DNA of 64,000 nucleotides from Anaeroplasmataceae bacterium. GTDB taxonomy: Bacteria; Bacillota_I; Bacilli_A; Acholeplasmatales; Anaeroplasmataceae. Location of the stretch: positions 1-64,000 of the forward strand of contig JAIDZC010000038.1 in the NCBI GenBank assembly GCA_029057785.1. Direction: 5' to 3'. A program made the translations under genes and the position numbers. The notes below the pieces were generated by a model that ran no database searches, was not told where the DNA came from, and was given only the letters and a program-made list of their open reading frames with translations. Numbering within the stretch: the first letter of the stretch is position 1; every line of letters starts with the position of its first letter. This document shows positions 2 through 57,650 of this stretch, one piece after another.

Positions 2-3000
2 AAGATTCCTGAAACAGTTGCAACTATAGGAAATTATGCATTCTTACGTAATAGAAAGTTAGATAACCGTTTATATGATTACACTATGGCTATTCCAGCA
101 AGTGTTACAAGAATTGGAAACTGGGCGTTCTATGAAAACTTCTTAATGCGTCATTTTGTTGTAGAAGAAGAGATTGCTGAAGATGGCTCTGTTGTTGAAT
201 CATTAACATATGTCGGCAGAGGTATTCTTGCAGGATGTAGTAGTCTAGAGGATATGGTTATTCCTTATGTTGGTGAATACATTACAAGCTCAGCTGCAAA
301 TGATTCTACATTAGAATGGTACTTTGTAGATTTAGAAACTACTACATGGTCTTATCTTGATACAAACAATCGTACAACATGGTTATATAGTGTATCTTAT
401 GGTTACTGGCATGTAGTGGCTCCTTATTCCTTAAGAGAAGTTACATTAACTAGAGCAACTGCGCTTATGCCAAATGCCTTTAGAGCATTTACTTCCTTAG
501 AGGAGGTACACCTACCAGGTACAACTGAAGAGTTCCCAGTAAAAACTCTTACAACAATTAATAATTATGCATTTTATGATTGTTGTTCATTACAAAATAT
601 TATACTTCCTGATAGTGTAACCTATATTGGTCTTCAAGCCTTCTGGAATTGTGTAACCTTTACAGATATTACAGTTCCAACAAGCGTTGAGACTATGGGT
701 CAACATATCTTTGGATATTGTTCAAATTTAACGAACTTAACCCTTCCATTTATTGGAAATACTGATGCTTCTACTGGTGTCAATGCTACATTTGCATATA
801 TGTTCTATAATAATGCACGTGTTGCGGGTACACATACTTATACAACAGTAGAATTTGCAGATGATGCTAATGGTGGATTTACTCGTACTAAGGTAACAAA
901 ATCTGTTCCTTATGGCTCTTTGACAAGTGTTACTCAATATGCATCTATAGGTGTTAGTGATAAGAAGGTAAGCTTAAATAAGTATACAATTCATACTTAT
1001 ACTACACCAGAAGATATCTTAGAAGAAACTTATGAGACAACTTTAAATTTCACTAATGGTATTACAAGCTGCGTTCCTGCAACTTTGAAATCTCTTACTA
1101 TAACAAATGCATCTAAGATTGGTGTAGGTGCATTAATGAATGTCCCTATGATTGAAACTCTAGATCTTAAGGACAATAGTGATGATCCAGAAGGAGCATT
1201 ACGTAGATTAACTACAATTGATAATGGTGCATTCTATCATATGGGTACAGTTAAGGATTTATTTGTTCCTTCAACTGTGACTACTTTAGGACATTTCTTG
1301 ACTAAGGATTCTTCCTTTGAAAACTTAGTTCTTCCAGCATCCCTTCGTAATGTTGCTGACCATGCATTTGAGAATTCTGATGCATTAAAGAATGTTACTC
1401 TTAAGGGTGAATACCTTTCAGCAGATGACTTTACAGTTATGGGTGCATTTATGTTCCGTGATTGTGATCTACTTGAAAAGGTTACTCAAGAAGGACCAAT
1501 GGAGATTATTCGTACTTATGCATTCTATGATTGTCCTAATTTGAAGTGGTTCAATGGTACTGAAGAAGAAATTGAGAATGACATTTATATTATTCGTATT
1601 GTTGGTGCTGAAACCCTAGAGGATGGTACGAGAGTTCCAGGAACTCAAGTTATTGAACCATATGCATTCAGCTTTAATCCAAATTCTACAGTAACTCCTC
1701 AAATTCAAAGAATTGAAATCAACAAGAGTGTAGTTGCTGAAATTGGTAAATTTGCATTTGCATATCAAACAAATGTAAGTGGTCCTGATGGATTGAAATT
1801 AAATACAAATGTATTAGGTGCATTTGCATTTAAGGGTTGTACAGGCTTGACAAATGTAACTTTCCCTAAGGCAATTCACGTTATAAATGCTGGTGCATTC
1901 TACAACTGTATTAATTTGGAAATTGTAAATTTTGCAGATGATACTGAGGCTTGTAGGCTAATTGATGACTATGCATTCTACAACTGTTCTAAGCTAAGAG
2001 TATTAATCATGCCTGATACAATTGAAGAATTAGGTCAAAATGTATTTGCTAAGTGTTATGAATTATTCTATGTAAAATTCTCTAATAATATTTATAATAT
2101 TAATGACTATGCATTCTATCAGTGTGTTAAGTTAGCTGTAGTTGTTCTACCTTCTGAGTTAAGAGCAATTGGTGCTTATGCGTTTGCAGAATGTATTCAT
2201 TTGGGATATTTAGATGAAGAACAAAAGGATTACTTAAATATTAATCATATTTCTTATGATGAAGAAAAGGTTAAGAAATTTGTTATCCCTGCTAAGGTTG
2301 GAGATCCATTCCCAGAGGATTATCGTCTAGAAGAAAATACAATAGGTATTCGTCCATATGCATTTGCATATTGTACAAACTTAACTTATGTTGATGTACA
2401 ATGTAAGATTTTAGGAGACTATATTTTCGATCATTGTATTAGTCTTGAAACTGCAAATCTTGCTGATGGTTTAACTACAATCAATGTTGCAGCATTTAAC
2501 CATTGTGAATCTTTAGTCAATATTAATAACAATAATGTTGGTGGAGATCCAGTATTAACTATCCCTACAACTGTATTAAATATTGAAGACTTCGCATTTA
2601 ACTATTGTTTAAGTGCAATCGAAGTTATCGTTCCTGAAAATGTTGAACAAATTGGTAAATATGTATTTGCTTATAATAAGCATTTAGAGACAGCTACTGT
2701 AAAATGTGATATTTTAGGAGCTTATATGTTTGCTTATGATGGTGAGTTTAGAGACATTGCAATTAGTAATGAAATCCGTATTATACCAGAAGGTTGCTTC
2801 TATAAATGTAGCAGCTTAAGCAGCATGGTCAACATCGGTAATACAGATATAAGTGATGGTAATACCATAATTCTACCTACAAGTGTACGTGTTATTGAGA
2901 AGGAAGCATTCCGTTATTGTACATCTATCAAGAATTTGATAACACCTAATACTTTAGGCGCAACAGAAGTAGGATTTGAATATGATGGTCCATATCTTGC

Positions 3001-32044: not shown

Positions 32045-32102
32045 TTAATACTTTTGATGTCCCAAAATGTCAAAAGAAGAGGTGCTTAATTCCTAAAGAA
32101 GG

Positions 32103-32140
32103 GGTCCGTCGGAACATTATGTTTCGATGGACCTTTTTTT
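32103..32140 (+). terminator. Strong intrinsic terminator after the megaprotein gene
   Basis: Arms GGTCCGTCGGAAC (32103-32115) and GTTTCGATGGACC (32121-32133) form a 13-bp stem with two G-U pairs and an ATTAT loop, followed by seven T residues. It lies 58 bases after the stop codon, so the next gene should need its own promoter. Confidence 0.92.
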
Positions 32141-32310
32141 CTGCTTTTTATAATTATTTTCCTATGTTTTTATATTTTTTGTAAGTTCTTTAAAATAAAG
32201 CGTTTTACTCTTATACTGGTAATATCTGTAATTCCTAATAAGAAAATCTAATATTTTAGAGAAAAAATGGGATAAAATTAGAAAAAATATGCACTTTATT
32301 GACGTTTTTG

Positions 32311-32338
32311 TTGAAAAGTTTATTGAATATCTTTTCAA
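32311..32338 (+). promoter_or_regulatory. Operator-like inverted repeat around the -35 box
   Basis: Perfect 8-bp arms TTGAAAAG (32311-32318) and CTTTTCAA (32331-32338) flank a 12-base spacer that contains the -35 box. The right arm falls between the -35 and -10 boxes. The arm centres are 20 bp apart, close to two helical turns, which would suit a dimeric regulator. In such AT-rich DNA an 8-bp palindrome can also occur by chance. Confidence 0.4.
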
Positions 32339-32351
32339 AATAAAGTATAAT
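32323..32351 (+). promoter_or_regulatory. Sigma-A type promoter of the second giant gene
   Basis: A -35 box TTGAAT (32323-32328) and a perfect -10 box TATAAT (32346-32351) are exactly 17 bases apart. Transcription would begin near 32358, leaving a leader of about 94 bases before the ATG. The upstream terminator makes an independent promoter here necessary. Confidence 0.75.
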
Positions 32352-32371
32352 TAATGATGGACTAGTGCGCC

Positions 32372-32405
32372 AAATTTACAAAAAGTATAAAATTTTTGCA
32401 AATTT
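32372..32405 (+). promoter_or_regulatory. Hairpin in the leader of the second giant gene
   Basis: Arms AAATTTACAAAAA (32372-32384) and TTTTTGCAAATTT (32393-32405) pair at 12 of 13 positions around an 8-base loop. It would start about 14 bases into the predicted transcript and end about 30 bases before the Shine-Dalgarno site. It is AT-rich and not followed by a T tract, so mRNA protection at the 5' end is more likely than termination. No riboswitch class was recognised. Confidence 0.4.
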
Positions 32406-32451
32406 TAATGTTGTTTTATAGATTTAGTTTTCTAAAAAGGAGGCTGTAAAA

Positions 32452-44400: not shown

Positions 44401-47400
44401 TGGTTCCCTGAGCATACATTGACTCTACCAATGCCAACGGTTCCTGATAATTATGATCTAGATGATGTTATATTAACTTATTCTCTAGGTGGAAAAGAAT
44501 CTGTAGATCCAACTATTGGATGTATAGAGGCTGGTGTGTATGAGTTTACACTGATATTCCCAGAAACTGCTTATTATAAACAAACAAAGATTTCTTCTAG
44601 TTTCCAAATTAGAAAGATCAAGATTTATATTGAGGATGACTCCTTACTTGGTGGAGCTAGATTTAAGTATGATAATCTTGTGAAGACTTATGATTTCACA
44701 TTCAATAAGGCAAATGCCCAACAATCTGAGCATAGTAATTATATCCTTTATACAATGAAGGATGATATAATGACTGAGCTTCAAGATCAAAACTTATTGT
44801 TTAGAGCTACTTTAATTACAAATGGTAAAGAAGTAGGTTCTTATCATGGTAATGATGGTACATTGACTGTATTTGCATATGAATATGAAGTATATAGTAC
44901 TGCATTAGATAAAGATATGACAAATAACTATATGCTCGATTTTGCAAAGGCAAGTATTTCTATTGACAACATTGATATGGTATGGTCAACTACACCTGCT
45001 GAATATGTTTACGATGGTCAATTACATGGATTTAATATTTCTTTTGCAGCTCCAAGCAAGAATCAAGTAACAATCAAGTATAAGAATGACGCTACGGGCG
45101 ACTTCCAGCTTACTCCAGTTCAGTACAGAGATTGTGGTGAGTATGAAGTAGAGGTTGAATTGTCAGCTAAGAATTACAATACAACATATGCAACATTGAA
45201 GTTAACAATCACCCGTGCTGCAACTGAGATTATTTATGTAACTAACTTAGGTAAAATCTATGATGGTGCAGAAGTAACGCTACCAGATAGAGTGTTTACA
45301 AATCGTGATTTAGCAGACGAAGAGAATTTAAGAAATACGTATACCTATGAATACTATTACTATAACGAGGATGGCGATCTTGTTGCTAACCCTATGTACA
45401 AGCAAGAGTATAAGGATGGTGTCGTTATTTCTAATGGTACACGTCCAATTGATGTGGGTAAATATAAGATTAAGATTACTATCCCAGCAGTTAAGAATTT
45501 TGATGAAGTTACATGGGAAACAGATTTTAGAATTTCTCAACGCGATGCTACATTGAACTGGAAGGGGTCAGAGTTTACCTATGATGGTACTGCAAAGAGC
45601 CCAGAAGCTCATATGGTATTAACTGCTGACGATGTTAAGAATGGTGTAGTTATTGCATTAAAGATTACAATTACTCCAAATGGGGATCCTAATGATCCTG
45701 AACATAAATCTGTAGGATTCTATACCGCTACTGCAACAATTGATTACAATGAAAGTTCAGAAAAGGCAAAGAATTACAAGATTGATAAGGCATCTGAAAC
45801 ATTCCCATTCCGTATTAATTATCGTCGTATTGCAGTTGTATTCTCTAGAAAAGATGTATTAGATACAGATCCATTACATCAATACAATATAAGATATAAG
45901 AATTCAACTTCTTATAATCCAGATACAAAATATTCATTTGATGTACAAAATCTTGTTTCAACTCATGAAATGAAGGATTATTTACAATTGAAATATTCTG
46001 GAACTAAGACATATTTCAATATTACAGACTTCCAGTGGATGGACTTCCAAACTAATAATCCTATTAATGGCAATCCAAAGATTTATGATGAGAATAACAA
46101 TGAAGTACAAAATAACTACTTAATTGAGACTTATCAAGTATTATTTGGCTTGACTACTGATGAATCAGCAATTGAGCGTGAAATTAGAGAAAACGTTGTA
46201 CCTTATGATGGTGAACTTCATACATTCATTTTCGAAATGGAAAATAAAGATGACTTCCTTATCTTCTATAAGGTTGGTGGAAAACTAGGTACAGGAAATA
46301 ACTATGTAATTTCTTCAGACTTCCCTGGTGGTCAACCTTCATTTAGAGAAGTTGGATATTATCCTGTAAATGTTTCTATTCGTGATTTATCTAATAAAGA
46401 GATCGTAAATGATTTGACTTATGTTCAAATTTATGCTGCTGATCCACATCTAGAACCAGCTGATCTTGACTTTAGATTAGGTAAGGTTTATGATGGTAAG
46501 CCAGTAGAAAATCCTGAAATGACTTATGATGGTAAGGTTGCAGGAGAAAATATTTTAAAATATATCTACTATAAGATAAATGAAGATGATCCAGATCATC
46601 CTATTGAGTTAGCAGAGGCTCCAAAAGAAGTGGGCAGATATAAGCTAGTTGTAAAGATACCTGAAAGAGGTAATTATGCAGCCGCATCATATAGCGAAAG
46701 CTTTATATTCGATATTACACCAAGAAATATCAAGGTGGTAATTCCTGCTAACATTGGTAGAAAACTATACGATGGTCTACCTTGGACAGCCACAATGACT
46801 GATGATAATATTGATGGTTCTGGTGATGAGGGCTTAGCTCCAAATCAAACAATTCGTACACAAGAATTACGTTTGAATGCCGTAAATGCTAAGCAATATA
46901 ATCCAAATGGAACTGACCATAATTTATTCCAATGGTCTCCAGCAGGAACAGATATTTGTAAGATTTACGACGAGAATGGTAGAGAGGTACAATCAAACTA
47001 TACAATTGAGTATTCTGGATATGTTGATATTCAGCAACGTCAATTTGCATTTGAATTTGATCCACTAGTTTCTAAGTATGATGTTACGAATACTACAGGC
47101 TACTTCGTTGCCGTAAAAATATTAGGTACTTACGATGAAAATGGTAAGGTTGTTCCAACATATATCCAAAATGATGATATTCAAATTATCTATTCATTTA
47201 ATAGTGATTTCTCTAATCCATCTACTACACCACTTCCTGTGAAGAAATTAGGTCATACTCTAGTATGGGCTAAGATTGTAGATAAGAGTGGTAATATTGC
47301 CACAGCTACAACTTACACTATGGTTTACTTATATGAGGATAATGGTGGAGAAGATGATCCTGATGAACCACTTGAGGGACCAGATGATGCAGAGAAAGAT

Positions 47401-49779
47401 CCAGAGCATATTAAATTTGAAAAATTCAAGGTTTATAATGCTCAAGAATATGAATGGCCAGAGTGGCTTGGTACAACAGAAGGTAGATCATTTGAACTTC
47501 ACTTCTATACTTTAGAGTATTGGAAACAATGCGATGCGGCTAATGTTGAATTAGATCCTGCTCAAGCTATTTCACGTCCAATTGATATAGGCGAATATGT
47601 ATTCGACTATAAAGTTGGTAAGGATCCAAATGATCCTGAGGATGTCGATAGAAGATATAAACAGGCATTCCGTGTAAAGCCTAAATATGTTTCTGCTGTT
47701 TGGTCAAACTTAATGGTATATATTCCAGATGGAGAAGACCAATTAGAAAATCCTACTTTACCTACAGCAACCTTTATTGATGCTGGAGGTAAGCTACAAC
47801 ATCTAGAAGTAGGACCACTTCCAGGATATGTAAGTGAAGGTGTTTATACAGTAAATGCTACAATTAAGGACAATGAAAAGGGCAACTATGTTCTAAAGAA
47901 TCCAGGTAATATTTTCGAAATTACTAGTGATAAGGATAAAAAGCCTAAGCCAAATGATGCAGAATTAAGAGGAGACATCGACTTCCAAAAGGATAAGGAA
48001 TATGATACAGAAAAATATCCAGATCCAGTATTTAAAGGTCATAATTATGAAAAGCGTCCTACAACTGTAAAATATTATGACTGGGATTATTATCAAGAAC
48101 ATTATCCTGATTTAGATCCAGAAAAGGCAATTACTGCTCCAACAGATACAGGTAAGTATGTATTTGTTATGGATATCCCTGAAGATCCTGATGATCCGGA
48201 TAATTATCCACCAGAGAAAGTATATCAATACTTCACAGTTAGTCCACATGCAGTGGAAGTTACTTGGAGTGACCTTGAACATAACTTTGATGGTACGATG
48301 AAATATGCTCATGCTGAATTTAAGGGTATAGGCAAAGAAGCAGACCAAATTTTCCAATGTGAAGTAGTGCCTGGATATGATTATGTTGGTGATAAATTAC
48401 CAGTATTGGCTAAGAGCCCTAGTAAGAACTATACTATTTCTAATCCAAATGCAAATATGAGAATTACAGGCAATGTGGTTGAAGATATAGTTATAGCTCC
48501 AGGTCAAGAGTTCAAATATCAAGATCCTATTATTCTTGAGGATACATCTCCAACTACAAATTACTATGTATCAAAGGATGATTATGAGAAGAATAATTCT
48601 ATCTTAGATGCATTAGGAGATTTATCTCATGTCTTCTTAGTAGATAATGATGGTATTATTTACAAATGGGATGCTGTCTATGGAAGATGGGAAGAAGCTG
48701 ATGTTCCATATAAGATGCATATCGATGTGAACAGAGATGCTGGTACTCATAAGGTAACAACAGAATTAAAGGATAAGAAGCAATATTCTTGGAAGAACCA
48801 TGGTACTGATGATATTGAAGAAACTTATAAGATTAATGCTTTAGTTCTACCTGATGCTGATTATGACCTTGAATATAATTATGAAAAGGTATGGCAGTAT
48901 AATGATGGAAAACCAATTGAGCCACCAGTAGAAGTTTATCTTGTGGATCGTGTAACTAAGATTAGAACTCAACTTGCTTCTGATCAATACAAGCTATCTT
49001 ATAACAATAATACTGACCCAACTACAGAAGCAGAAATTATCATTGAAGGTCAAGGAAACTATTCTTTCAATACAGTTCAATTGTTTACAATAACTAAGAC
49101 ATTACGAATTCTTGAATTATTAGATGATGCTTTAGTTCAATGGACAACAATAAAATATGAGGATAAGATGGTAACAACTATGGGTGAAACTACTGACCCA
49201 GAAGATAAGGTTGAACATAAATCCACTGCTGATATGGATCTATATTTAGGATGTATTCATCATCAGACTACAATTGAAGATATTTTGAAACAATTTAAGA
49301 ATTATGCTGAGCATCCTGAATGGTTCGTTGTTAGACGTTTTGCTTATACAGATGAAGAACCAGATTATGTTGACAAGAATGATCCAACAAAGCAATATGT
49401 TGATATTGATCCTACATTCTATCAAGGATTCTTTGGATCCGGATATACAATCTTCTTAATCGATGAAGAAACTGATGATGTTCTAGACCAAGTGGCTGGT
49501 GTAGTATATGGCGACTTGGATGGTGACGGATTAATCACAGCTTCAGATGCTGATAAGATTGATACATTCGTAAAACTTGGTGATGGTACTATAGATGACT
49601 TTGATCAACCTTGTTTCTATTTTGCCGGAATAATGCCAAGAGATGTTGGTTTCATTACTGCAGCAGCTTCAGATTTAATTACTTCATATTTGGCAAATAT
49701 TGAAAATGCCTTAAAGGGTGATGGAAATCCTGAAGATTATGACTTTAATACGTTTGGAGGTAAATACCAAGCAAGCTAA
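32452..49779 (+). CDS. Giant LRR_5 / MBG-repeat surface protein with C-terminal dockerin (complete)
   Basis: This 5,775-residue protein starts at the ATG at 32452, eight bases after AAGGAGG. A basic N-terminus and a hydrophobic stretch (residues about 13-37) give a signal peptide or uncleaved signal anchor; no clear AxA cleavage site is visible. LRR_5 repeats fill residues about 140-1140, with four PFxG/FGWIFG-type modules. A junction module follows (about 1150-1230), then a region of unknown type, then about 25 MBG/YDG-type Ig-like units (about 1490-5540), a pre-dockerin module (about 5603-5686) and a dockerin from D5688. The order of parts matches the upstream megaprotein, so the two are paralogues with opposite emphasis: long LRR versus long Ig-like string. 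Inferred role: a secreted, extended surface protein docked to a cohesin partner. It is the only giant gene here with a visible promoter of its own. Confidence 0.93.
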   Translation: MRKIWKGLMQSKIKLLSVLFATVAVVCLTTVLVLNLTVQPGDPGSTPIAGNTEEYYDNLAENNAIEMKYLMFETHTADNAPSNSKVAGVWCKGIDIQQIYLDCGSNNSALVAYFSTHTALIIPSTTDGYDTVVGIDFSNVGWNNPVYRGGVTSGNTFLQLVSYIEVVKIPKSVQYISAYSFNSFTKLGYFETPFIGTSRGSSARGINMTAYDIREFENTNGHIPTSDPFGSMFGRHNPLYPMRTERTGQGDTDTWFNSFGIEYEPRYMEWKELDENSVKSEAFGFYLPNKIDYLYITDEKALGNYSLAMTSARHVEVTAQGSVFSFGAYAFAESGKLGDQFSDAQQGLETIKLNMSGSISMKTGTFNTCQTLQSIIIPRASTNIEIPDAFLYNNLSLKTVYMPGTVTSIGKGSFMGCEQLERIAVYTGDSANLTGDYDTDVANGLVVNHEYKFDLPTQLKSIGADAFRDCKSFDVIYVPNAVESIGYAAYSGCSSVERAILPFVGAHVGRCTNSCVNEEGKKVHHGLSGWIFGDVSGNTTNCYDAKQSFIDETGSISTKPFTIPKKLKDITLTKETHLTTGCFQGLASLESITINDAVGSNIVEGCFDQCGSLKSMSIPTIVGGNLGAFFKGSEKFDGSAVTIGSCRVPTTLKIVRITNMPSASGQLFHNCSNIETVEFSNVTTYFGNAIFYNNQSLKNLTVPIIGMQRGEFNPNYYMWWRDIRYRNSLMWLFSESLQTDAYRNTSQYYQPYSAVYYSPYIPNSLKSVTVTNEYEIDYHAFRGFTGLENISITNVPDHIDEGSFWNCGSLQSLQLPYIGNNLNRSGDAGWSHVLGFIFGRNASYSNSYAVSQYSTYYIPNGLETVEIGTSSTEVASLSTKVFDYAFSGCSSIRSIDFKHADIQTLGTYAFANCSKLEDVNYPNARYSHVGNYAFYNCKTLKRMKKAGDAPDEKGFIPDTVRTIGSHAFDGTSVGYLDSGSYANNRLDLTSYTSVGDYAFANCLQIDEVVVPENLIIGSGLFSGCSYLTSATLPTNNKMVTPYMFQNCVSLPGVDITGITNIPAGIFSGCTNLSFANGLILNPSINSIGAYAFAKCSSLEHFELPAGLYSIDEGAFQGCKNLEYLTIPRETKIINPYGWNNCDDNFYFYVYEPEEKWPSTWVYNWNCYYPVYVLGDVGEDVFTYTYVITEKRYYITGITRKGYEMGLSGTLRIPSRHDGVDVVGIDESLLSDIDKAEGAQKISTQTGITRVILPKGVTKIVGSPFQTGQRVDIYTEYTKAEILKIYNDSKAAIEQEFLDWEKTQVQPIPEDTIENKRIDLYRKLVGWKPFAENEDGIAMSDGSGDTWDTRNWTSGGMLYYKDYWQYGTETGTSSLVPYLKIDTFKYIFDEYEVENTSYTGSAIKVRVVRIQLPGEIFINEGLDITIDEIMYIYESDVKILNYAYSNNVNVGTANVAVSINRDELEYYNENQWGARAKHPLYLTGTTTLHYQILPIEILLLATANDGLYYEKEYDGNVFSYYQWQSGQISGLEGYPGASFSGTLSSNSANAGEYYPSDLVWTTPWRVMLNNIDVTNNFRVTVQFLVIINPMEVEVVWTRAKEPVDGQYLLASLADATRPDGSPIYLYPYIGGEIQPTAVAKKYGTDAEYVPDCDLLVTHISNAGIYPYEKDGFQNTYHMYAYVAPYDANNYVIRATDRDTGEKYIPTVILDATTRIVAMEGWYRVTKGRIVISFDLSEKNAYLISPYENEWSYTWGSKYLGDGKYEDMNNRLYISGLGENSRFVGKMATSSDSKATYDYNNTLTGDILFEESGTGVYVLSWQTVSFAHSWNGKTVNFTATQDMPFLIWNPILDIENENDCYDVVVNGRVQIIYNQFEPTYFIGLNTDDYETIKNPNYITVPDGTKYKDVSNEGGSESQREYLYWEYEVDGSEYRFSAEDLDVLDKNVPGYTKLYHSDNGASLSADEVKFVSLGDHVFSVTFSARHYDDVQYNIWINAVRSHVKFADLSKTYDRNPVDIDSKIIKMGTDQRPLMTVTYMDQYGTELSEPPVNVGKYKAHIVVPEGEFFHPFDEIIDFEIYARVVTIDVTGDKVFDNQPHQIDTLTLDNLSTSVQGPDKGLLDGDRMQGILQTTSFVPKVYDSLLNNTFKWAVPWTVIYIGTYDDVSRNYRVELTGSFEIKPLQFKYNVRDERGNYITDLDDEGHLIQTLFYDSTFHSISINLTFPVPGNYAPAPTSDVIIRYSDISLAENSGSWLTSPSPVTTPGEHKIYFMLKADYFETIIDYVTIHIKELEIIYDDPAWNDGDGFDERYTIEYSGSNQTYMITVIKPSFSATVYYSVDGGPETEEAPMFKEVGEYTVKYRITAPNYEEVIKTVVVHVVQPGEEIPSEYYEFDYFNGVYDGNSHSVTANFKSSFINSQPAGFWYKVLFSVDQGENWTEVAPLYTEVGKYRVDIKYQAKGYKDVVIAGQIIIKGKPLYLETTEYRGVFDGKYHNAGLTTNHAGCSVTYNEDTNKYTYTDASGSVELNLLYSLNANVAATDSEEGWISGPGFKDVGLYTVYVKVEADNYEPIIFETYTPVVIEFLENPSASMESPQTFEYSKAPLDVDQIVIDTVADGVRTAYWYSAHYGLDGNPVQDMPEERITAPQELGVYYVKIHISPTKNTGSADVEGFVEIVPRKLTVTWDSPQYYDGNIKNPNATVETGTSDEISLMVEVTGGIPPIEVGSYVFNVWMAYPNPNYVLDRDQFTLEIIKRNVLFNLHEDFVVKEDFSKWVYTDSASYDKSDQCPGDDHWHLLGDLHGTAEKYVDNELVEITYSGLSPNHLFYIEMETSSGQRGQYHYSTITNDFYINSVRVIKWDIYEKDENNRIRELYGQPVSVKEFYDVDFDILINLTYPQIDLSTLEIITDYVYDGLAHTIYINIPTRYGSAFVYYKDETTGRYTTTPPRRTLVGEYTIEFYVGATGYEDTYGEATLKITPADLYITIGDLYKVSDSTKTLHEKYDATTHINSYGVTNILTTTPPVPTHIRYYDAKVYKEQDILKLYRNFDITDPIYSKGISNLVDAGKYYCVVYYEEDDNRWHESFAMKYVELKPRDILVEFAPGTVPDITITYNGKPVVIPLTNATIDTTPAAPGDTDGLLPIHSITTTADRMKEYYVQTNSANAGVYPLDTGFEFLAIDIYEIAGHKSVKASNYHPVLIGDFHVEILKKYLEDDEFYLLLNEYTKTYDGKVHTPDYFPKDTYVCASDGEMNMTFYQIDNEGTQTYVPGDQKNAGTYLVILGIDEGTNYYSSYASNAQLKGDGTPYLSYPSVQYTARVNKKTVDVHWEGLEQTFNGEILYPRPTFIDAETEPGTEVEVDLMTLYYDSEVFDFIPKNVINAGDFMVAAKFDTSTMAGKEYEKNYTLSRETVSTMFIVHKLVLALQLGDGGNSNKITHYSSQSPWQSIVYTTPTAGAAEFIAEGDVDIQAWINNMKISSLADDNLPARISTISYAETTYMDPADFYYDIRIRNKAGLDVTDSIDYKILGSVTIVADEIVYDLKDHVTVMYREVKGTSSVVGYNLNELNCLTVYNPARYNIVNYRINGEIHSENDRISQAGDYVLTFDITAENRITRSCTVYVTIQKRAAYMIFKEELTKTYDGVPVDVAKLINSNLSGFNGTMSDLQFQYVEIIDSLNEVPLNEAPKAAGNYRVDIISKADNDTSAEHNYTALEVSQTFSIYPREININYEKDLELLDDSLLGQPWRDAFEALSGDITDIVSGDKLFYEFNLASLARGEFVARRTFKDSKNETQQSFTSDNAVEFTFAWAVKQTDDKGNVIYETFESPAGSGNMVQQAVDISKNYTINLAFRLLVHYPYIPANVIGETVTYDGNPHHGTITFEADKAGRYSRDWYENNVLQTYSTDLNTLSTSTIHNINDLSFTEPGSYTVYYKLTIDPSLTPVKYEDMEGSFNIVISKLERNLSITQQAKEYDGEPAGIKLSGTTTERWFPEHTLTLPMPTVPDNYDLDDVILTYSLGGKESVDPTIGCIEAGVYEFTLIFPETAYYKQTKISSSFQIRKIKIYIEDDSLLGGARFKYDNLVKTYDFTFNKANAQQSEHSNYILYTMKDDIMTELQDQNLLFRATLITNGKEVGSYHGNDGTLTVFAYEYEVYSTALDKDMTNNYMLDFAKASISIDNIDMVWSTTPAEYVYDGQLHGFNISFAAPSKNQVTIKYKNDATGDFQLTPVQYRDCGEYEVEVELSAKNYNTTYATLKLTITRAATEIIYVTNLGKIYDGAEVTLPDRVFTNRDLADEENLRNTYTYEYYYYNEDGDLVANPMYKQEYKDGVVISNGTRPIDVGKYKIKITIPAVKNFDEVTWETDFRISQRDATLNWKGSEFTYDGTAKSPEAHMVLTADDVKNGVVIALKITITPNGDPNDPEHKSVGFYTATATIDYNESSEKAKNYKIDKASETFPFRINYRRIAVVFSRKDVLDTDPLHQYNIRYKNSTSYNPDTKYSFDVQNLVSTHEMKDYLQLKYSGTKTYFNITDFQWMDFQTNNPINGNPKIYDENNNEVQNNYLIETYQVLFGLTTDESAIEREIRENVVPYDGELHTFIFEMENKDDFLIFYKVGGKLGTGNNYVISSDFPGGQPSFREVGYYPVNVSIRDLSNKEIVNDLTYVQIYAADPHLEPADLDFRLGKVYDGKPVENPEMTYDGKVAGENILKYIYYKINEDDPDHPIELAEAPKEVGRYKLVVKIPERGNYAAASYSESFIFDITPRNIKVVIPANIGRKLYDGLPWTATMTDDNIDGSGDEGLAPNQTIRTQELRLNAVNAKQYNPNGTDHNLFQWSPAGTDICKIYDENGREVQSNYTIEYSGYVDIQQRQFAFEFDPLVSKYDVTNTTGYFVAVKILGTYDENGKVVPTYIQNDDIQIIYSFNSDFSNPSTTPLPVKKLGHTLVWAKIVDKSGNIATATTYTMVYLYEDNGGEDDPDEPLEGPDDAEKDPEHIKFEKFKVYNAQEYEWPEWLGTTEGRSFELHFYTLEYWKQCDAANVELDPAQAISRPIDIGEYVFDYKVGKDPNDPEDVDRRYKQAFRVKPKYVSAVWSNLMVYIPDGEDQLENPTLPTATFIDAGGKLQHLEVGPLPGYVSEGVYTVNATIKDNEKGNYVLKNPGNIFEITSDKDKKPKPNDAELRGDIDFQKDKEYDTEKYPDPVFKGHNYEKRPTTVKYYDWDYYQEHYPDLDPEKAITAPTDTGKYVFVMDIPEDPDDPDNYPPEKVYQYFTVSPHAVEVTWSDLEHNFDGTMKYAHAEFKGIGKEADQIFQCEVVPGYDYVGDKLPVLAKSPSKNYTISNPNANMRITGNVVEDIVIAPGQEFKYQDPIILEDTSPTTNYYVSKDDYEKNNSILDALGDLSHVFLVDNDGIIYKWDAVYGRWEEADVPYKMHIDVNRDAGTHKVTTELKDKKQYSWKNHGTDDIEETYKINALVLPDADYDLEYNYEKVWQYNDGKPIEPPVEVYLVDRVTKIRTQLASDQYKLSYNNNTDPTTEAEIIIEGQGNYSFNTVQLFTITKTLRILELLDDALVQWTTIKYEDKMVTTMGETTDPEDKVEHKSTADMDLYLGCIHHQTTIEDILKQFKNYAEHPEWFVVRRFAYTDEEPDYVDKNDPTKQYVDIDPTFYQGFFGSGYTIFLIDEETDDVLDQVAGVVYGDLDGDGLITASDADKIDTFVKLGDGTIDDFDQPCFYFAGIMPRDVGFITAAASDLITSYLANIENALKGDGNPEDYDFNTFGGKYQAS
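36900..49090 (+). repeat. MBG/YDG-type Ig-like repeats of the second giant protein
   Basis: About 25 units of 90-180 residues recur, marked by YDG-like elements such as EYDGNVF, VYDGNSH, TYDGKVH, EYDGEPA, IYDGAEV, VYDGKPV and LYDGLPW. Each is followed by an AGxYxVxV-like strand and a closing FxIxxRxIxV strand. Extra strand-rich insertions make unit length uneven. Near 47340-47400 and 48180-48220 there are acidic Asp/Glu/Pro linkers. Confidence 0.8.
49258..49776 (+). other. Pre-dockerin module and divergent dockerin of the second giant protein
   Basis: The module TTIEDILKQF, then FGSGYTIFL and GVVYGD, matches the pre-dockerin module of the megaprotein. Calcium loop 1, DLDGDGLITASD (residues 5688-5699), has all ligand positions. 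The second loop region, around MPRDVGFITAAASDL (from residue 5728), has lost Asp at the expected positions, although the following helix LITSYLANI resembles a dockerin helix. A 31-residue tail follows. It may bind calcium at only one site. Confidence 0.7.
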
Positions 49780-49850
49780 AAGATAATTAATTTATACATA
49801 GGTAGAATGTCTATCTGTGCAACAAAACTAAAGATATTCTACCTTGTATT

Positions 49851-49874
49851 CATTAAATGTTTCGGCATTTAATG
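49851..49874 (+). promoter_or_regulatory. Hairpin between the second giant gene and the membrane-anchored gene
   Basis: A perfect 9-bp inverted repeat, CATTAAATG and CATTTAATG, encloses the loop TTTCGG. It is followed by AGATATCTTTT and ends 30 bases before the ATG at 49905. It could be a weak terminator, an RNA processing site or a stabiliser of the downstream mRNA. A wider repeat, GGTAGAAT (49801-49808) and ATTCTACC (49836-49843), lies just upstream. No convincing promoter was found in 49780-49904, so the downstream genes may depend on read-through. Confidence 0.45.
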
Positions 49875-49894
49875 AGATATCTTTTAAAATTGGT

Positions 49895-49899
49895 GGAGG
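49895..49899 (+). promoter_or_regulatory. Ribosome binding site deciding the start of the membrane-anchored gene
   Basis: GGAGG lies five bases before the ATG at 49905. The in-frame ATG at 49857 has no such site, lies inside a hairpin arm and would add 16 residues (MFRHLMRYLLKLVEEI) before a typical Lys-rich signal peptide. The ATG at 49905 is therefore preferred. Confidence 0.8.
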
Positions 49900-49904
49900 A
49901 AATT

Positions 49905-52900
49905 ATGAAAAAAATAAAAGGAATTAAAAAAATATTAATAATGGTTCTACTGAGTGTTGCCTTGGTCTTTACAATTGGTGGATTTAAAAACACCTTCCAA
50001 GCACAAGCTGCAGGAGAAACATGTACATATACTTATGCTGCTTACTCAAAAGAAGGCTATGAGACTTTACAAAACGCTAGAATTATAGATGAGGATGGCG
50101 ATTGTTCTACTACAATTGATGACTTAAAGGCTTTGATAGCAACTTACGAGGCGTTAAAGACTACCGGTTCGGAAGGTAATAAGAAAAAGAAGTTCTGGAC
50201 TGATGGTGATGGTAAAAGATTTAGAGGATATATTGACATTCCACAACTCCCTGATGGAAGTTATAATGAAGATGATGAAAATATAGACTGGGATACTATA
50301 ATTCCTCGTGGTGATGGAACAAATGAAGGCATATATAATGCATTAAAGGCAGAATTAGCTGCTTGGGAAGCAAAGAACCCACCTCTAACTGCTATTACTC
50401 CTGGACAAGAGATAGTAGTAGAAATCTATGCTGAACTTTCTACTAGTGGTCAAATTCGTGCGGTTGCTGCAACATTGGATTTAGAAGGAGCTATTGATTC
50501 TACAGCTGGTATAACTCCTTATTACAATAAAACAGAAACTGCAAATGGAGCTACTACAACTTTACAAGGTATAAGTTCTACTAGTCCTACAATTGGTTGG
50601 CAGTATTCTGCAGCAACAGGAAAAGCTGCAGCAGCAGGTAAGGTTTTTGTAGGTGCATTTGGTGTTACTACATCCTCAACAGGTTCAGGATTTACAGTCA
50701 CTCTTGCTGATGCTGCTACAAATAACAACTCTGGTAAGACATTGTTTATCCCACATGCAACTGGTGAGCAAGTAAACGACTCTTTTAATACACCTTCTAA
50801 AAACAGTAGATTCCTAGATGAGCCATTAGAGCTCGCAGGAGCTACAATTTCTGATGATACATCTTTAATGGTATTGACTGTGGATGGGAAATCTATATTA
50901 ACTGGAACTGGTCCTCAGTATGCTGCTTCTGATGAAATCACAGGAAATAAAGCCGCTGTCTTTGCTCAAGTTAAAGATAATGGTACAATTGAAAATACGG
51001 GATATGTTTATAAAACAAATCCAACATTACCTGCAACCGGAACTGCTAATGCACCTTCTGGAAGTACTGGTACAGTGTCTATTGCTGCTGGAAACTTTGA
51101 CGTTGATATGTCAGGTGTTTCTGCAGGTGATAGCGTATGGGTAGTATTTAGAGCAATTGCTTCTGATACAGTTGCAAAGAAATGGTACTCCGTACAGGTA
51201 ACAAAAGCAAAAGATACAAATTGTGATCTTGAGGCTGTAGAAATTAAGGCTACAGTAAGTGGTACAAGTACACCTTTATTGACTGAAACTTCATCCCTTA
51301 CTAGTCAAACAGAATTTAATGTTTACTATCCAAAGGGAACGACAACTTCTAATAGCTTTACTATAAAGCCAACATTTACGGCTCCTAAGACTGCAACACT
51401 TAATGGTGCTACAGCTACATCAAATGCTGTTACACCATTAACGTCTATCTCTAATGGTAGTGTTGTAACTATTGTCGTAAAAGCTCAAGATACTTCAAAA
51501 ACAAAAACATATAAATTTACTTTCTATGAAGCAGATACTAAGCCTATTAGTGTTACTGGTTATTCTGGACCTAGTTCAAATGTACAGTCTCAAACAGGTG
51601 AGTATGCTACAGCTTCTAAGAAGTTTACCTTAAATAATATGGCTTTAGGCCGTGATGGCTTCTGGTTAAATATAGTTTTACCAACAAACGCTTCAGCAGA
51701 ATTATTTGATACAAACAAGACAACAAGTCTTGGAACGATAACTTCTGGTACAAATACTTCAACTATAAGTTATCCTACTACTGCAAATGATGCTGCAAGT
51801 ACAAAAACTGTATGGATAAAGGTTACAAACAATGGCTATACAGATTGGTATGAAGTAGAAGTAAATAGACCAAAAGCTGATAATGATAAATCAGGTGTAA
51901 CTATTACAGCAATGGGATATGTTGATGCGAATAATGCAAATCAAACATATACATTGCCTAGTGCACTTCCAACAAATAATTCTACGAACATTACAAATAC
52001 TCCGAAGTTGACTTATAACTCTAAGACTGCTTCCTTTGTAATTAATGTTCCATCAGGTTCTAAGACTAAGATTTTAAATGCATCAGGTGTTGATATTACA
52101 GGACAAACTCAGACATTAACTTTAGATGCTGGGAAGACCAACCTTCAAAAAACATTTAATTTCTATGTTCAAACAGAATATGATAGAACACAATCACAGC
52201 CACAGAGCAATGGTACGCAATATACAATTGTAATTGAAGAAGAGCCAGCAAATGGAACTAAGACTCTAGATAAACTAGAGGTTAAGAATTCTTCTGGTGC
52301 AACTCTTCCTAAGCCTGCTCCAACTATGAGCGGTGGCGTTACGATTTATAATTATGACATTGATACTGATTTGAATGGTAATACATTTACTGTTGATTTA
52401 GCATGGAGCCCTGCAACAACTAAGGCATATGTTGGTAAAACTGTAAATCCATCAACTGAATACAATGCATCAACAACATATGATGTTGGCGATACTGTAT
52501 ACGTTAGACTTGTAGCAGAAGATGAAACAGTCTCAGAATATCGTATTGTGACTACTAAGGCAAAGAGCTCAAACAATAAGATTATAAGTATTATGCTAGA
52601 ATATGAAGCAGAAGATGGTTCTAAGGTTACTGTTTTCCCGGCTTCAGCATTTAATCAAGGAACTACTACCTATAATACTAATCAAGTTTCATCACTTACT
52701 GTACCTTATTCAGTAAAGAGTGTTAACTATACAGTAGTATTAGACGATGCTAAGTCATCTTTAAGTGTTGGTGGTGTCAATAATAACCAATCCAATATAA
52801 CAACTAGAACAGGAACATATACATTATCTTCAACACTAAATAATCTGTGTATCGTCTATGCTACTGCTGAAAATGGAACAAGAGGTACACAATATACAAT

Positions 52901-55900
52901 CACTATTTATCGTCAAACTGCTAAGTCAGGTAATTATATTGAATCTATTTCTATTGGTGGAGTAGATTGTACTGTTGCTAATGCAAATTACTTTAAAGAT
53001 GGAATTCCATTTAATTTGAATCAGAGAGGGGCATCATATCATTTATATTTGCCATGTACTCAATCTTTAAATGGAGTAGAATTCACAATAAGTGATGGAG
53101 CAACAGCAACATGGACTGCTGCACTTTCTTCTGGTAATACTTTAACCTTCCCATTTGTAAGTAATGTTACTCATAATCTGAATTATACATTTACAATTAG
53201 AGTTGTTTCTGAACAGCAAAGAATAGACAATCCTACTAATCCACAGAGCAATACATATACATTCAATGTACATGTAGCTGATCAAGATCATTCTCTTACA
53301 GATTTAGAATTACAGGATTCATCTGGCAATATAGTTCCTAGTACATCTAATGTTTATTTAGATCTTACAAATATTGCTTCATATAGTAATCAGAATACTC
53401 CATTTGAAGTTCCATATGAAGTGGATAGTATTGTGGTTGATGCTAAAAATACAAAACCTTCATTCCATGGTAAGATAAATGTAGAATATGGTGGAAATAG
53501 TAATGCACTTAATGCTGGTGCAACAAAGAAGGTTACAATTACTGTAACATCTGAAATGGCTGCTCTTGATACATCACGTACAGATTTAATTACAACATAT
53601 ACCTTATATGTAAGACGTAAAGATTGTGATCACGATCAAACCTTAAAGACACTTACTGTTTCTATTGATGGAACTCCTGTTGGTGTTGCACTAGAGAATA
53701 ATAAATATACATATGTTATTGATAGTTTAACAGCAGGTGATACTGTAGACATTCAAGCTACTGTAAATGATTCATCTTCAACGATTACTGGTCAAACAGG
53801 ACAACATACTATCACTGGATTACTTGATTATACAGGTAAGGATTCTACAAAGAGAGAATTGACATATCATATCTATGTATCTTGTAAGTGTGGAACTAAG
53901 ACAGCTCAAGATTATGTAATCAAATTACAGACAGATGAATATAAACCAGATACAACTCCTGGTGCAATTACTGCAATTACTGCAGAAACTAAAGAATCAG
54001 GTGGTTTGAATCCATCATATTCAACAGGGACTACTAGTTATGAAGTAAATCTATCAAATAAAGATGGTGATGACTATGTTAAGTTTACAATTACTAAAGC
54101 CAATCCTTTATCATCACTACATTTTAGTATAGATGGCCAAGTTCAATCTCCTGTTTCAAAGGATGCTACTCAAATCTTTACAGTTTCTAATATTGCTTTA
54201 GCTTCTTCAAAAGAAATTAAAGTATGGACTGTTGCAGAAGATGGAACTACACTTGGAACAGTTTACACAATTACTATAAAGCGTGCAGAAGCTGCTAGTA
54301 CAGCTAATGAAGCTACTATGATTTATTATAATGGAACAAACCAAGTGCCAAACTTTAATAAGTCAAGTGGTGGACCTTATACTATTAATTTAGGAAATCA
54401 AAAAGAAATTTATTTCACAGTTGATTTAACTGGCGTTAAGAATGCAACCGTTAAGCAAAATGTTCATGATAGTTATGCAAATCGTTATCAATTTGCTGAT
54501 GGCGTATTTACTGAAACCTTTACAATTATTGTAAAAGCTGAAAGTGGAGATGAAAAGAACTATAACATCATCGTAAATCGTGATGGTGATAAGGTACTTG
54601 ATGGTTTAACTGCTACAATTGATTCAGATTCTACAGATAAATTAACACCTACGTTCAGTGTGGCTACACTAAAATATAAGGTTACTTTAACTTCTACACA
54701 AAAGAGTGTTACATTAACTTACGTACCAAAGGCTAACAATGGTGCTACTACAGTATCTTTCATTGATCCTAGTGGTACTCCAATTGCTTTACCTGCTGGA
54801 ACTACGATGTATACTATTTCTAATATAATGCCTACATTTAATGCTGCTGGTGTAGATACACCATTAGTATATAAGGTTCGTGTTACTGCAGTAAGTGGTG
54901 CATACGAAGATTATGTAATAGAAATTAGTAAGGAAAGAGGTAGTGACACTGTATATATTGATTCATATACATATAAGGAAAATACTACTGATGCTGCTGA
55001 AAAGCCATTAGATGGTTTAAGTCCTGCAGTTACTACTTATAGTTATCGTGTTGATAGAAATACTTTATATTTCAATCCAACAATTACATTAAATGATCCA
55101 AATGGTAAGGTTGTTTGGCCAACTAATAGATCAATGATTGCTGGTCAAAGAAATGCTATGACAGTAAAGGTTATCCCAGCAAGTGGTGTTGGAAGCAAAC
55201 CAGATGGTTCAGATGATGAATCAAACGCTGTTTATTATACATTCAATGTATATCCTTGTGATATTACATATGAGATTGATGATATCTTTGCATTATTAAG
55301 TGATCAAAGTGCTAATCTATTAGATAAGGATGAAATAACTTATATCGATTATAGAAATAATGTTTTAGAAATCACAGTTCCATATGGTAAATCACCACAA
55401 TTGGATACATATTTAGATATTAAATCTACTGCTGACAACTATACTATCTTCTTAAATGGCAATCCTATGACTAGTGCTAAACAAAGTCTAACGGTTGGAA
55501 GAAATGAATTTAAGATTCAAATTAAGAGTGATTATGCTACAGCATATGATAAGGTAAATACAACTCCTATCACAGGATATAAATCTAATGTTATAACTGT
55601 AATTATTAATCGTGATACACAAAATGATGATGCAACACTTAAAGATTTATGGGTAACTTATATAGATGCTAATGGTCAAGAACAAACTATTCATTGTTCT
55701 ACATTACCTGGTAATGATACATTTGCCGTTCCATATCTTGGTGATGGTGTAACAGTTGTATCTGTTGGTGCAACTCCAAATGCTCAAACATCAACTGTTT
55801 CTGGAACAGGTACTATATCCTTATCTGGAACAGGTACTACAGGACAGACCTTTAACATTTCTGTAACTTGTACAGCTGAATCTGGTAAGAAGATAACATA

Positions 55901-57650
55901 TCCTATTACAATTGCTCGTGGTGCTATTGATTTCGACAAGGATAATTCTATTTTGGAAATCATTGTAGAAGCTGATGGAAAAACTTATCTTGCCCAACCT
56001 GATTCAAATCCACAAACTAACTTCGATAAGGATGTATTTGATTATGGTGTATTTAAGATTCCATTCTCAGCTAAAGACTACAAGATTACTGTAGTAAGAC
56101 CAGATGGTACATATTCAACTACTTGGATTGATGGCTCACCTCGTACATCTAACACATTAACTACTACAATCACATCTGCAATGAGAGGCGGTAGTAAGGA
56201 TGTTGTTGTATATTGTGTTGCTAAAGATCCAGAAGTAGGCAAAGGTAATGAATATACAATTCATTTAGAATTTGAATCAGCATCTACTGATTCAACACTA
56301 TCTAACTTAAAGGCTGATGGTACTACAGTTCCTGGATTTAGTCCAAATATAACTGAGTATACACTACCTTCAAGACCAAATACTACAGAAGTTATTGATA
56401 TTGAATATGTGACAACTGATCCAAAAGCTAAGGTTTCTGGTGATATCGGTAGACAAGCATTGAAGCAAGGATTGAATACATTTGCAGTAACAGTTACTGC
56501 AGAAGATGGTTCATCTACAACTTATAAGATTAATGTTATTAGAGATTATCCATTACCTTATTTAACTGATTTAGGTGCTATTGGTGAAAAATTATTAGAT
56601 GCTAACTATAAGACAACTACATTTGATAAGGAAGTTTATACTTATACAACAATTGTAAGCTATATGACTTTATATGCAACAATCAAAGCTGAAGTTGATA
56701 ATCCTGATTTCGTTGTTTCTTGTAGTAATTCAACTCTAAATTCAAAGACTGATTTAGTAAGAATGTTTGATGTTAATCTAGCTGAAGGCAAGAATGAATT
56801 TACATTAACTGTAACTTCTAAGGAAGGTAAAACAGTAGAGTATACTTTAATCATTAAGCGTCGTGGATTAGCTTCTACAAATACTGAAGTTGAATTCATT
56901 GATATTCTTCAAATTCCAGAATTCAAGGAAGCTTATACAGATGATGAAAGATATTATTCTTATGAAGTTCCAAATGGAATTAAGACATTAGATGTTAAGG
57001 TTACTCCAGCTCAAGGTCCAACTGAGGATGGAGATGGTGCTACTTTCAAGATTATCAATGGTAGAGAAAGTGGAGTATTAACTGATCAAAATGTTACCTT
57101 AAGAGTTGGTAAGAATACTTTAGTAATTTTAATCATTGCTGAAGATGGAGAATCTACTCGTGCAATCGTAGTAGAAGTTACAAGAGCTCCTATGACCTTC
57201 TCTGTAGATACAGAAGCTTATTCTGAATATACATGTGAAAAGAAGGAAAATGGTGAGTATGCTTACAAGATTAATTTGGTTGATAAGAGAGCTGCTGATA
57301 TCCAAGATTATACTAAGTATATCGTATTTGATGAAGAGTACTATGACTCTACAAATCAATACGTTGAAAAGCCTGAAGTAACAGTTATTTCTGATACTTC
57401 AAATAGAATGTGTACAGAAGTAATCGTACGTATCTATGATGGCGATGAAGAAATCTTTGTTACCTTCGAGCTTGAATCAAAGGCATTACAGGGTGGAAAC
57501 ACAATTCCTGAAATTTTACAAATCATTATGCCTTGGATTTTACTTGCAATTGCAATTATCATCTTAATTATTATCTTAATTTGTGTTAATAGAGATAAGT
57601 TCGGTGCTATTAACAAGAAAAGAAAAAAAGATGACGAACAAGAAGCATAA
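49905..57650 (+). CDS. Membrane-anchored cadherin-like beta-sandwich protein with possible N-terminal cohesin
   Basis: This 2,581-residue protein has a signal peptide with a plausible AQA cleavage site at residues 33-35. An EF-hand/dockerin-like loop DEDGDCSTTIDD (62-73) with a following helix comes next. A beta-rich domain (about 165-285) opens with TPGQEIVVEIYAEL and ends with a FTVTLADA strand; its PGxxVxVxV start and strand order resemble a cohesin, which is tentative. About 19 units of 95-120 residues follow to residue 2430. They show the cadherin-like beta-sandwich pattern (PF12733 type): LxxLxVxG, then FxPxxxxYxV, then an EDGxxxxYxIxIxR strand. A transmembrane helix (about 2540-2562) and a basic cytoplasmic tail end the protein. 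Inferred role: a long stalk fixed in the membrane that displays a binding domain far from the surface, perhaps as receptor for the dockerins of the two genes upstream. Confidence 0.85.
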   Translation: MKKIKGIKKILIMVLLSVALVFTIGGFKNTFQAQAAGETCTYTYAAYSKEGYETLQNARIIDEDGDCSTTIDDLKALIATYEALKTTGSEGNKKKKFWTDGDGKRFRGYIDIPQLPDGSYNEDDENIDWDTIIPRGDGTNEGIYNALKAELAAWEAKNPPLTAITPGQEIVVEIYAELSTSGQIRAVAATLDLEGAIDSTAGITPYYNKTETANGATTTLQGISSTSPTIGWQYSAATGKAAAAGKVFVGAFGVTTSSTGSGFTVTLADAATNNNSGKTLFIPHATGEQVNDSFNTPSKNSRFLDEPLELAGATISDDTSLMVLTVDGKSILTGTGPQYAASDEITGNKAAVFAQVKDNGTIENTGYVYKTNPTLPATGTANAPSGSTGTVSIAAGNFDVDMSGVSAGDSVWVVFRAIASDTVAKKWYSVQVTKAKDTNCDLEAVEIKATVSGTSTPLLTETSSLTSQTEFNVYYPKGTTTSNSFTIKPTFTAPKTATLNGATATSNAVTPLTSISNGSVVTIVVKAQDTSKTKTYKFTFYEADTKPISVTGYSGPSSNVQSQTGEYATASKKFTLNNMALGRDGFWLNIVLPTNASAELFDTNKTTSLGTITSGTNTSTISYPTTANDAASTKTVWIKVTNNGYTDWYEVEVNRPKADNDKSGVTITAMGYVDANNANQTYTLPSALPTNNSTNITNTPKLTYNSKTASFVINVPSGSKTKILNASGVDITGQTQTLTLDAGKTNLQKTFNFYVQTEYDRTQSQPQSNGTQYTIVIEEEPANGTKTLDKLEVKNSSGATLPKPAPTMSGGVTIYNYDIDTDLNGNTFTVDLAWSPATTKAYVGKTVNPSTEYNASTTYDVGDTVYVRLVAEDETVSEYRIVTTKAKSSNNKIISIMLEYEAEDGSKVTVFPASAFNQGTTTYNTNQVSSLTVPYSVKSVNYTVVLDDAKSSLSVGGVNNNQSNITTRTGTYTLSSTLNNLCIVYATAENGTRGTQYTITIYRQTAKSGNYIESISIGGVDCTVANANYFKDGIPFNLNQRGASYHLYLPCTQSLNGVEFTISDGATATWTAALSSGNTLTFPFVSNVTHNLNYTFTIRVVSEQQRIDNPTNPQSNTYTFNVHVADQDHSLTDLELQDSSGNIVPSTSNVYLDLTNIASYSNQNTPFEVPYEVDSIVVDAKNTKPSFHGKINVEYGGNSNALNAGATKKVTITVTSEMAALDTSRTDLITTYTLYVRRKDCDHDQTLKTLTVSIDGTPVGVALENNKYTYVIDSLTAGDTVDIQATVNDSSSTITGQTGQHTITGLLDYTGKDSTKRELTYHIYVSCKCGTKTAQDYVIKLQTDEYKPDTTPGAITAITAETKESGGLNPSYSTGTTSYEVNLSNKDGDDYVKFTITKANPLSSLHFSIDGQVQSPVSKDATQIFTVSNIALASSKEIKVWTVAEDGTTLGTVYTITIKRAEAASTANEATMIYYNGTNQVPNFNKSSGGPYTINLGNQKEIYFTVDLTGVKNATVKQNVHDSYANRYQFADGVFTETFTIIVKAESGDEKNYNIIVNRDGDKVLDGLTATIDSDSTDKLTPTFSVATLKYKVTLTSTQKSVTLTYVPKANNGATTVSFIDPSGTPIALPAGTTMYTISNIMPTFNAAGVDTPLVYKVRVTAVSGAYEDYVIEISKERGSDTVYIDSYTYKENTTDAAEKPLDGLSPAVTTYSYRVDRNTLYFNPTITLNDPNGKVVWPTNRSMIAGQRNAMTVKVIPASGVGSKPDGSDDESNAVYYTFNVYPCDITYEIDDIFALLSDQSANLLDKDEITYIDYRNNVLEITVPYGKSPQLDTYLDIKSTADNYTIFLNGNPMTSAKQSLTVGRNEFKIQIKSDYATAYDKVNTTPITGYKSNVITVIINRDTQNDDATLKDLWVTYIDANGQEQTIHCSTLPGNDTFAVPYLGDGVTVVSVGATPNAQTSTVSGTGTISLSGTGTTGQTFNISVTCTAESGKKITYPITIARGAIDFDKDNSILEIIVEADGKTYLAQPDSNPQTNFDKDVFDYGVFKIPFSAKDYKITVVRPDGTYSTTWIDGSPRTSNTLTTTITSAMRGGSKDVVVYCVAKDPEVGKGNEYTIHLEFESASTDSTLSNLKADGTTVPGFSPNITEYTLPSRPNTTEVIDIEYVTTDPKAKVSGDIGRQALKQGLNTFAVTVTAEDGSSTTYKINVIRDYPLPYLTDLGAIGEKLLDANYKTTTFDKEVYTYTTIVSYMTLYATIKAEVDNPDFVVSCSNSTLNSKTDLVRMFDVNLAEGKNEFTLTVTSKEGKTVEYTLIIKRRGLASTNTEVEFIDILQIPEFKEAYTDDERYYSYEVPNGIKTLDVKVTPAQGPTEDGDGATFKIINGRESGVLTDQNVTLRVGKNTLVILIIAEDGESTRAIVVEVTRAPMTFSVDTEAYSEYTCEKKENGEYAYKINLVDKRAADIQDYTKYIVFDEEYYDSTNQYVEKPEVTVISDTSNRMCTEVIVRIYDGDEEIFVTFELESKALQGGNTIPEILQIIMPWILLAIAIIILIIILICVNRDKFGAINKKRKKDDEQEA

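Follow-up and report, generated by a model that had tools for sequence, protein, structure and literature searches.

In this study, we describe a locus from an uncultured member of the Anaeroplasmataceae in which giant, non-enzymatic surface fibres are probably docked by a cohesin-dockerin pair to a membrane stalk, in place of sortase anchoring. The window, i.e. the whole stretch of 64,000 nucleotides analysed here, is the start of a contig of 109,931 bp (C32) in a genome of 1.76 Mb (98% complete). It is filled by six open reading frames (ORFs), all on the plus strand, and ORFs 1-3 are three consecutive huge frames. ORF1 and ORF2 encode LRR_5/Ig-like proteins, ORF3 the membrane-anchored stalk and ORF4 a GGDEF/EAL protein. 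The remaining two, ORF5 (60773..61888) and ORF6 (61909..64000; 1,497 aa, extending beyond the window), are Big_3 lipoprotein-like neighbours.

Results

A giant protein with a canonical dockerin

ORF1 (2..32044, plus strand) is truncated at its 5' end by the contig edge and encodes 10,680 aa in the window. With the N-terminal sequence of its homologue in genome G003 as query, the 5' part (5,609 aa) was located on contig C7. The two pieces are 78 and 79% identical to the intact G003 homologue of 16,336 aa and lack about 28 aa between them, so that the full protein should comprise about 16.3 kaa. Homologues of similar size are encoded by G005 (16,204 aa) and G007 (about 16,500 aa), and the N-termini of the homologues resemble cleavable signal peptides as judged by eye. 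LRR_5 arrays are followed by Ig-like strings, which were assigned by sequence judgement and carry no confident Pfam name, and finally by a canonical type-I dockerin at the C-terminus (31877..32032, plus strand). This dockerin has two Ca-loop repeats, both canonical, and matches PF00404 (Dockerin_1) with 46.5 bits (E 4e-12). In the search of the genome, where it is the sole Dockerin_1 match at E<=0.001, it reaches E 2.6e-14 over positions 2-53 of the 57 profile positions. The module preceding it (31652..31876, plus strand) resembles its counterpart in ORF2 by sequence comparison and may, by analogy, be comparable to the X-module of X-dockerins.

ORF2 (32452..49779, plus strand; 5,775 aa) starts with LRR_5 arrays as well and ends, after the similar module, in a conserved degenerate half-dockerin (49510..49692, plus strand). 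One canonical Ca loop, GDLDGDGLITASD, is intact, and the second half has decayed. An alignment reveals this state in its homologues throughout the genus. Concerning the sequence-only reading that both giants end in dockerins, the claim thus holds in its canonical form for ORF1, whereas the ORF2 C-terminus has no Pfam dockerin match. The N-terminal hydrophobic segment of ORF2 is less clear as a signal than in the ORF1 homologues; it may stay uncleaved and hold the protein in the membrane.

The same reading had the giants carry neither a catalytic domain nor a C-terminal anchor, and both statements were confirmed. Pfam searches of ORF1 including its upstream part and of ORF2 found no catalytic domain, nor did NCBIfam searches of the C-terminal halves of both proteins. 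A C-terminal hydrophobic anchor or sorting motif is absent from both. With LRR_5 arrays and export signals recognised by eye, ORF1 and ORF2 correspond to BspA-type LRR surface proteins.

A membrane stalk with a cohesin-like N-terminal domain

ORF3 (49857..57650, plus strand; 2,597 aa) starts with a cleavable-looking signal peptide (49857-50009). Its N-terminal domain (about 295 residues, 52-346; 50010..50894, plus strand) is followed by a string of Cadherin-like beta-sandwich repeats (50895..57500, plus strand; PF12733, E 5e-34), of which five stretches pass PF12733 on their own and the remainder is inferred. A single C-terminal transmembrane (TM) helix (residues 2549-2585; 57501..57611, plus strand) precedes a conserved basic cytosolic tail. 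Judged from its length, the stalk would comprise about 20 or more beta-sandwich repeats and measure in the order of 90 nm.

The AlphaFold2 model of the N-terminal domain, built from five sequences of the genus, is of modest confidence (pLDDT 65) and poor in its last quarter. It places a first strand at residues 56-64 approximately, a helical insert up to about residue 170 and a core up to about residue 345. When this model was compared by Foldseek with 350,542 PDB chains, the best eight hits were cohesins (E about 1e-3), which points to a jelly-roll of the cohesin type. A cohesin-like domain had been proposed for residues 165-285; the predicted fold agrees with it, but the domain is larger than that. 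Sequence methods gave another picture. The HMM search against cohesin families which had been suggested as a check returned no match (PF00963), and Pfam, phmmer against PDB and a PDB profile search were equally without a cohesin match. Comparison by hhalign with Pfam-positive cohesins of relatives was negative or not significant. We therefore dropped the naming of this domain as a cohesin at the sequence level, and its membership in the cohesin family is suggested by the predicted fold. In the proposed membrane stalk with a cohesin-like N-terminus, signal peptide, repeats, TM helix and predicted fold are accordingly in place, and the sequence match is missing.

Gene order and the same-position domain in other families

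As the model of the ORF3 domain is weak, a second model was built for the equivalently placed domain of other families in the order (13 sequences, pLDDT 77, pTM 0.79). The best 16 PDB chains of its fold search were cohesins, as were 18 of the 19 chains at E<=0.001. CBM, integrin and pilin domains appear lower down in the fold lists. No profile-level alignment was obtained between the two domain groups, so that the second model backs the arrangement and not the domain in the window directly.

Dockerins are present in 38 of the 160 genomes searched within the order. Among loci with readable neighbours, to which the adjacency counts refer, about 16 have a dockerin-terminated protein whose gene is separated by no more than about 240 bp from the next gene, or slightly overlaps it, and this next gene encodes a stalk or a protein with cohesin-like N-terminal domains. 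In five further loci, all from genomes of the genus, ORF2 lies between dockerin giant and stalk. A bridge between the groups is found in G074, where a gene 2 bp after the dockerin giant encodes two Pfam-positive cohesins and 11 Cadherin-like repeats. In G139, the TM protein beside the dockerin protein has three cohesin-like domains according to profiles. An exception is G143, in which a dockerin giant of 17,173 aa is encoded away from any stalk and an ORF2-like gene still adjoins the stalk. Several smaller dockerin proteins have neighbours other than a stalk. As read from these sequences, the recurrence of giant and stalk across the order would be more than chance, because random adjacency should be rare with few stalks per genome. 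The idea of a cohesin-like stalk beside non-enzymatic dockerin giants is hence supported by two fold models, the gene order and the G074 locus, but not by a sequence match in the window.

Further arrangements were observed in the order. At L110 (G143:C1:56000-75999), from another genus of the same family, positions 2-2398 are the end of the dockerin-terminated 17,173-aa frame. A second type of cohesin/dockerin pair occurs at L058 (G050:C1, 2630-15680) and L059 (G052:C30, 3497-14433), consisting, one after the other, of a protein that combines three Pfam cohesins with a C-terminal TM, of a small lipoprotein and of an LRR-type dockerin lipoprotein of about 2,400 aa. At L057 (G042:C1, 7208-10453, minus strand) and L122 (G128:C197, 1693-2388), a cohesin-like domain and a dockerin seem to be combined in one protein, a possible chain link. 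Near dnaA, L040 (G006:C70, 8156-15351) has a second dockerin protein and then a secreted protein, the N-terminus of which is possibly cohesin-like.

The gene after the stalk

ORF4 (57665..60664, plus strand) encodes a membrane protein with a TM segment, a degenerate GGDEF domain, an EAL domain (58313-59011) that keeps its usual catalytic residues, a coiled coil and an unnamed C-terminal domain. The C-terminal part (60200-60664) is strongly conserved in the genus and has no Pfam or NCBIfam name. ORF4 is also conserved as the gene after the stalk. In other families, this place is taken by a smaller membrane protein that has lost the EAL catalytic residues and, in the one example scanned, gives a weak GGDEF/EAL match. 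At L112 (G064, 13297-16592), also from other families, the stalk and the GGDEF/EAL-like gene are succeeded by two more genes (about 500 and 600 aa), the first of these with a weak AAA match. Other GGDEF proteins in the genome make c-di-GMP signalling plausible, and the gene order suggests that ORF4 might control the ORF3 stalk. As in the LapA/LapD system (PMC3032545, PMC3032553), the gene of a giant surface protein lies near that of a membrane GGDEF/EAL protein. A role of ORF4 as LapD-type c-di-GMP receptor was nevertheless rejected: unlike LapD, it has a single TM near the N-terminus, lacks a large extracytoplasmic domain and keeps the EAL catalytic residues, and the LapD model scores 55 of 1020 bits, far below the cut-off.

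Sortase and cell wall

Sortase was not detected in this genome, which contains three PBP transpeptidase genes (G000:C16:57707-58630, C23:27758-28597 and C44:13323-13988). Anaeroplasmataceae are usually described as wall-less; an explanation by wall-less cells was dropped here because of the three transpeptidases. According to a published analysis, sortases were lost close to the base of the order, and 40-60% of Anaeroplasmataceae genomes have peptidoglycan genes (PMC10868615). Taken together with the PBPs and the undetected sortase of this genome, a non-sortase anchor makes sense.

Discussion

We propose that ORF1 would leave the cell as a very long fibre of LRR and Ig-like units, itself anchored neither in the membrane nor in a wall. 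Through the dockerin at its C-terminus it would plug into the cohesin-like domain that ORF3 presents on the outer tip of the stalk. The repeat string of ORF3 would serve as a spacer that keeps the docking site beyond any wall, and the C-terminal helix of ORF3 would fix the assembly in the membrane. ORF2 could be a second or competing cargo or be retained via its N-terminal segment. The outcome would be a calcium-dependent, non-covalent and non-enzymatic surface display that does the job of sortase anchoring without a sortase. Binding of ORF1 to ORF3, its calcium dependence, the geometry and an adhesive function are what we infer from this arrangement.

One visible cohesin-like domain faces two candidate dockerin ligands, and the partners might be paired differently. 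In an arrangement we regard as unlikely, the ORF3 domain docks the half-dockerin of ORF2 and the ORF1 dockerin has a different partner, located on the same cell or on neighbouring ones. The direct adjacency of ORF2 and ORF3 in the genus would fit, as would the conservation of the half-dockerin and the G143 locus with its ORF2-like gene beside the stalk and the giant elsewhere. However, the canonical dockerin is that of ORF1, the canonical dockerin giant directly adjoins the stalk in other families, and a search of ORFs 1-3, 5 and 6 with three profiles gave no further cryptic cohesin.

Still less probable is that the ORF3 domain is a jelly-roll or beta-sandwich adhesin domain of another kind which does not receive dockerins, the dockerin-like repeats being merely Ca-stabilised C-terminal caps. 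The negative cohesin sequence searches and the CBM, integrin and pilin domains in the fold lists speak in its favour, but cohesins outrank all other beta-sandwiches in both lists, the gene adjacency has been conserved, and Pfam-positive cohesins occupy this place in one relative. Dockerin and cohesin-like domain could also belong to an enzyme-carrying complex such as a cellulosome, with only its structural parts in the window. This we consider very improbable, as the only Dockerin_1 protein of the genome is the giant itself and a catalytic domain was not found; neither dockerin-borne enzymes nor a multi-cohesin scaffoldin came to light.

Docking of the giant to the stalk, the reading we prefer, invites a more speculative extension. 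In this branch of Bacilli, for which sortase loss is reported, an order-conserved, dedicated cohesin-dockerin gene pair may have replaced sortase anchoring of giant adhesive fibres, with the adjacent membrane GGDEF/EAL protein coupling c-di-GMP to the cytosolic tail of the stalk and so setting display or release; we put this forward tentatively and think it rather doubtful as a whole. The docking model itself offers a testable answer to the question of how sortase-less bacteria hold very large surface proteins, and gene order links such a display system to c-di-GMP proteins. Moreover, a dockerin may seem to be an orphan when its cohesin is missed by sequence profiles. Here a candidate partner, encoded by the adjacent gene, is supplied for such dockerins, and the combination of fold search and gene order could find more.

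The C-terminal type-I dockerin and a cohesin-like fold on the cell-bound partner are shared with the cellulosomes of C. thermocellum (CipA), C. cellulolyticum and R. flavefaciens (scaffoldins). In contrast to these, the cargo is enzyme-free, a single cohesin-like domain replaces the array, a TM stalk replaces SLH or sortase anchoring, and the cohesin is missed by sequence profiles. LRR cargo with dockerin is known from Ruminococcus flavefaciens FD-1, and a possible role in organising the cell surface has been suggested for some of the dockerins in that study (PMC2930009). Those proteins are part of a large many-cohesin cellulosome, whereas in the present locus a single giant (about 16 kaa) is combined with a dedicated neighbouring stalk. 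Non-cellulosomal cohesin and dockerin proteins, including those of ANME archaea, are probably located at the cell surface (PMC9012536, citing Peer et al. 2009); the accessible part of that report describes no pair of giant cargo and stalk whose gene order is conserved across an order. Dockerin_1 is known in proteins above 5,000 aa, mostly of Planctomycetota, for which the accessible part of the source (PMC11573180) describes no partner cohesin. In a literature search for dockerins of Acholeplasma or Anaeroplasma, none of the papers listed contains the term. Cohesin-dockerin pairs outside cellulosomes, dockerins on LRR proteins and dockerins on giant proteins have thus each been recorded separately. 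What looks new is the dedicated pair of giant and stalk, its conserved gene order across the order and a putative, profile-invisible cohesin in the genus of the window.
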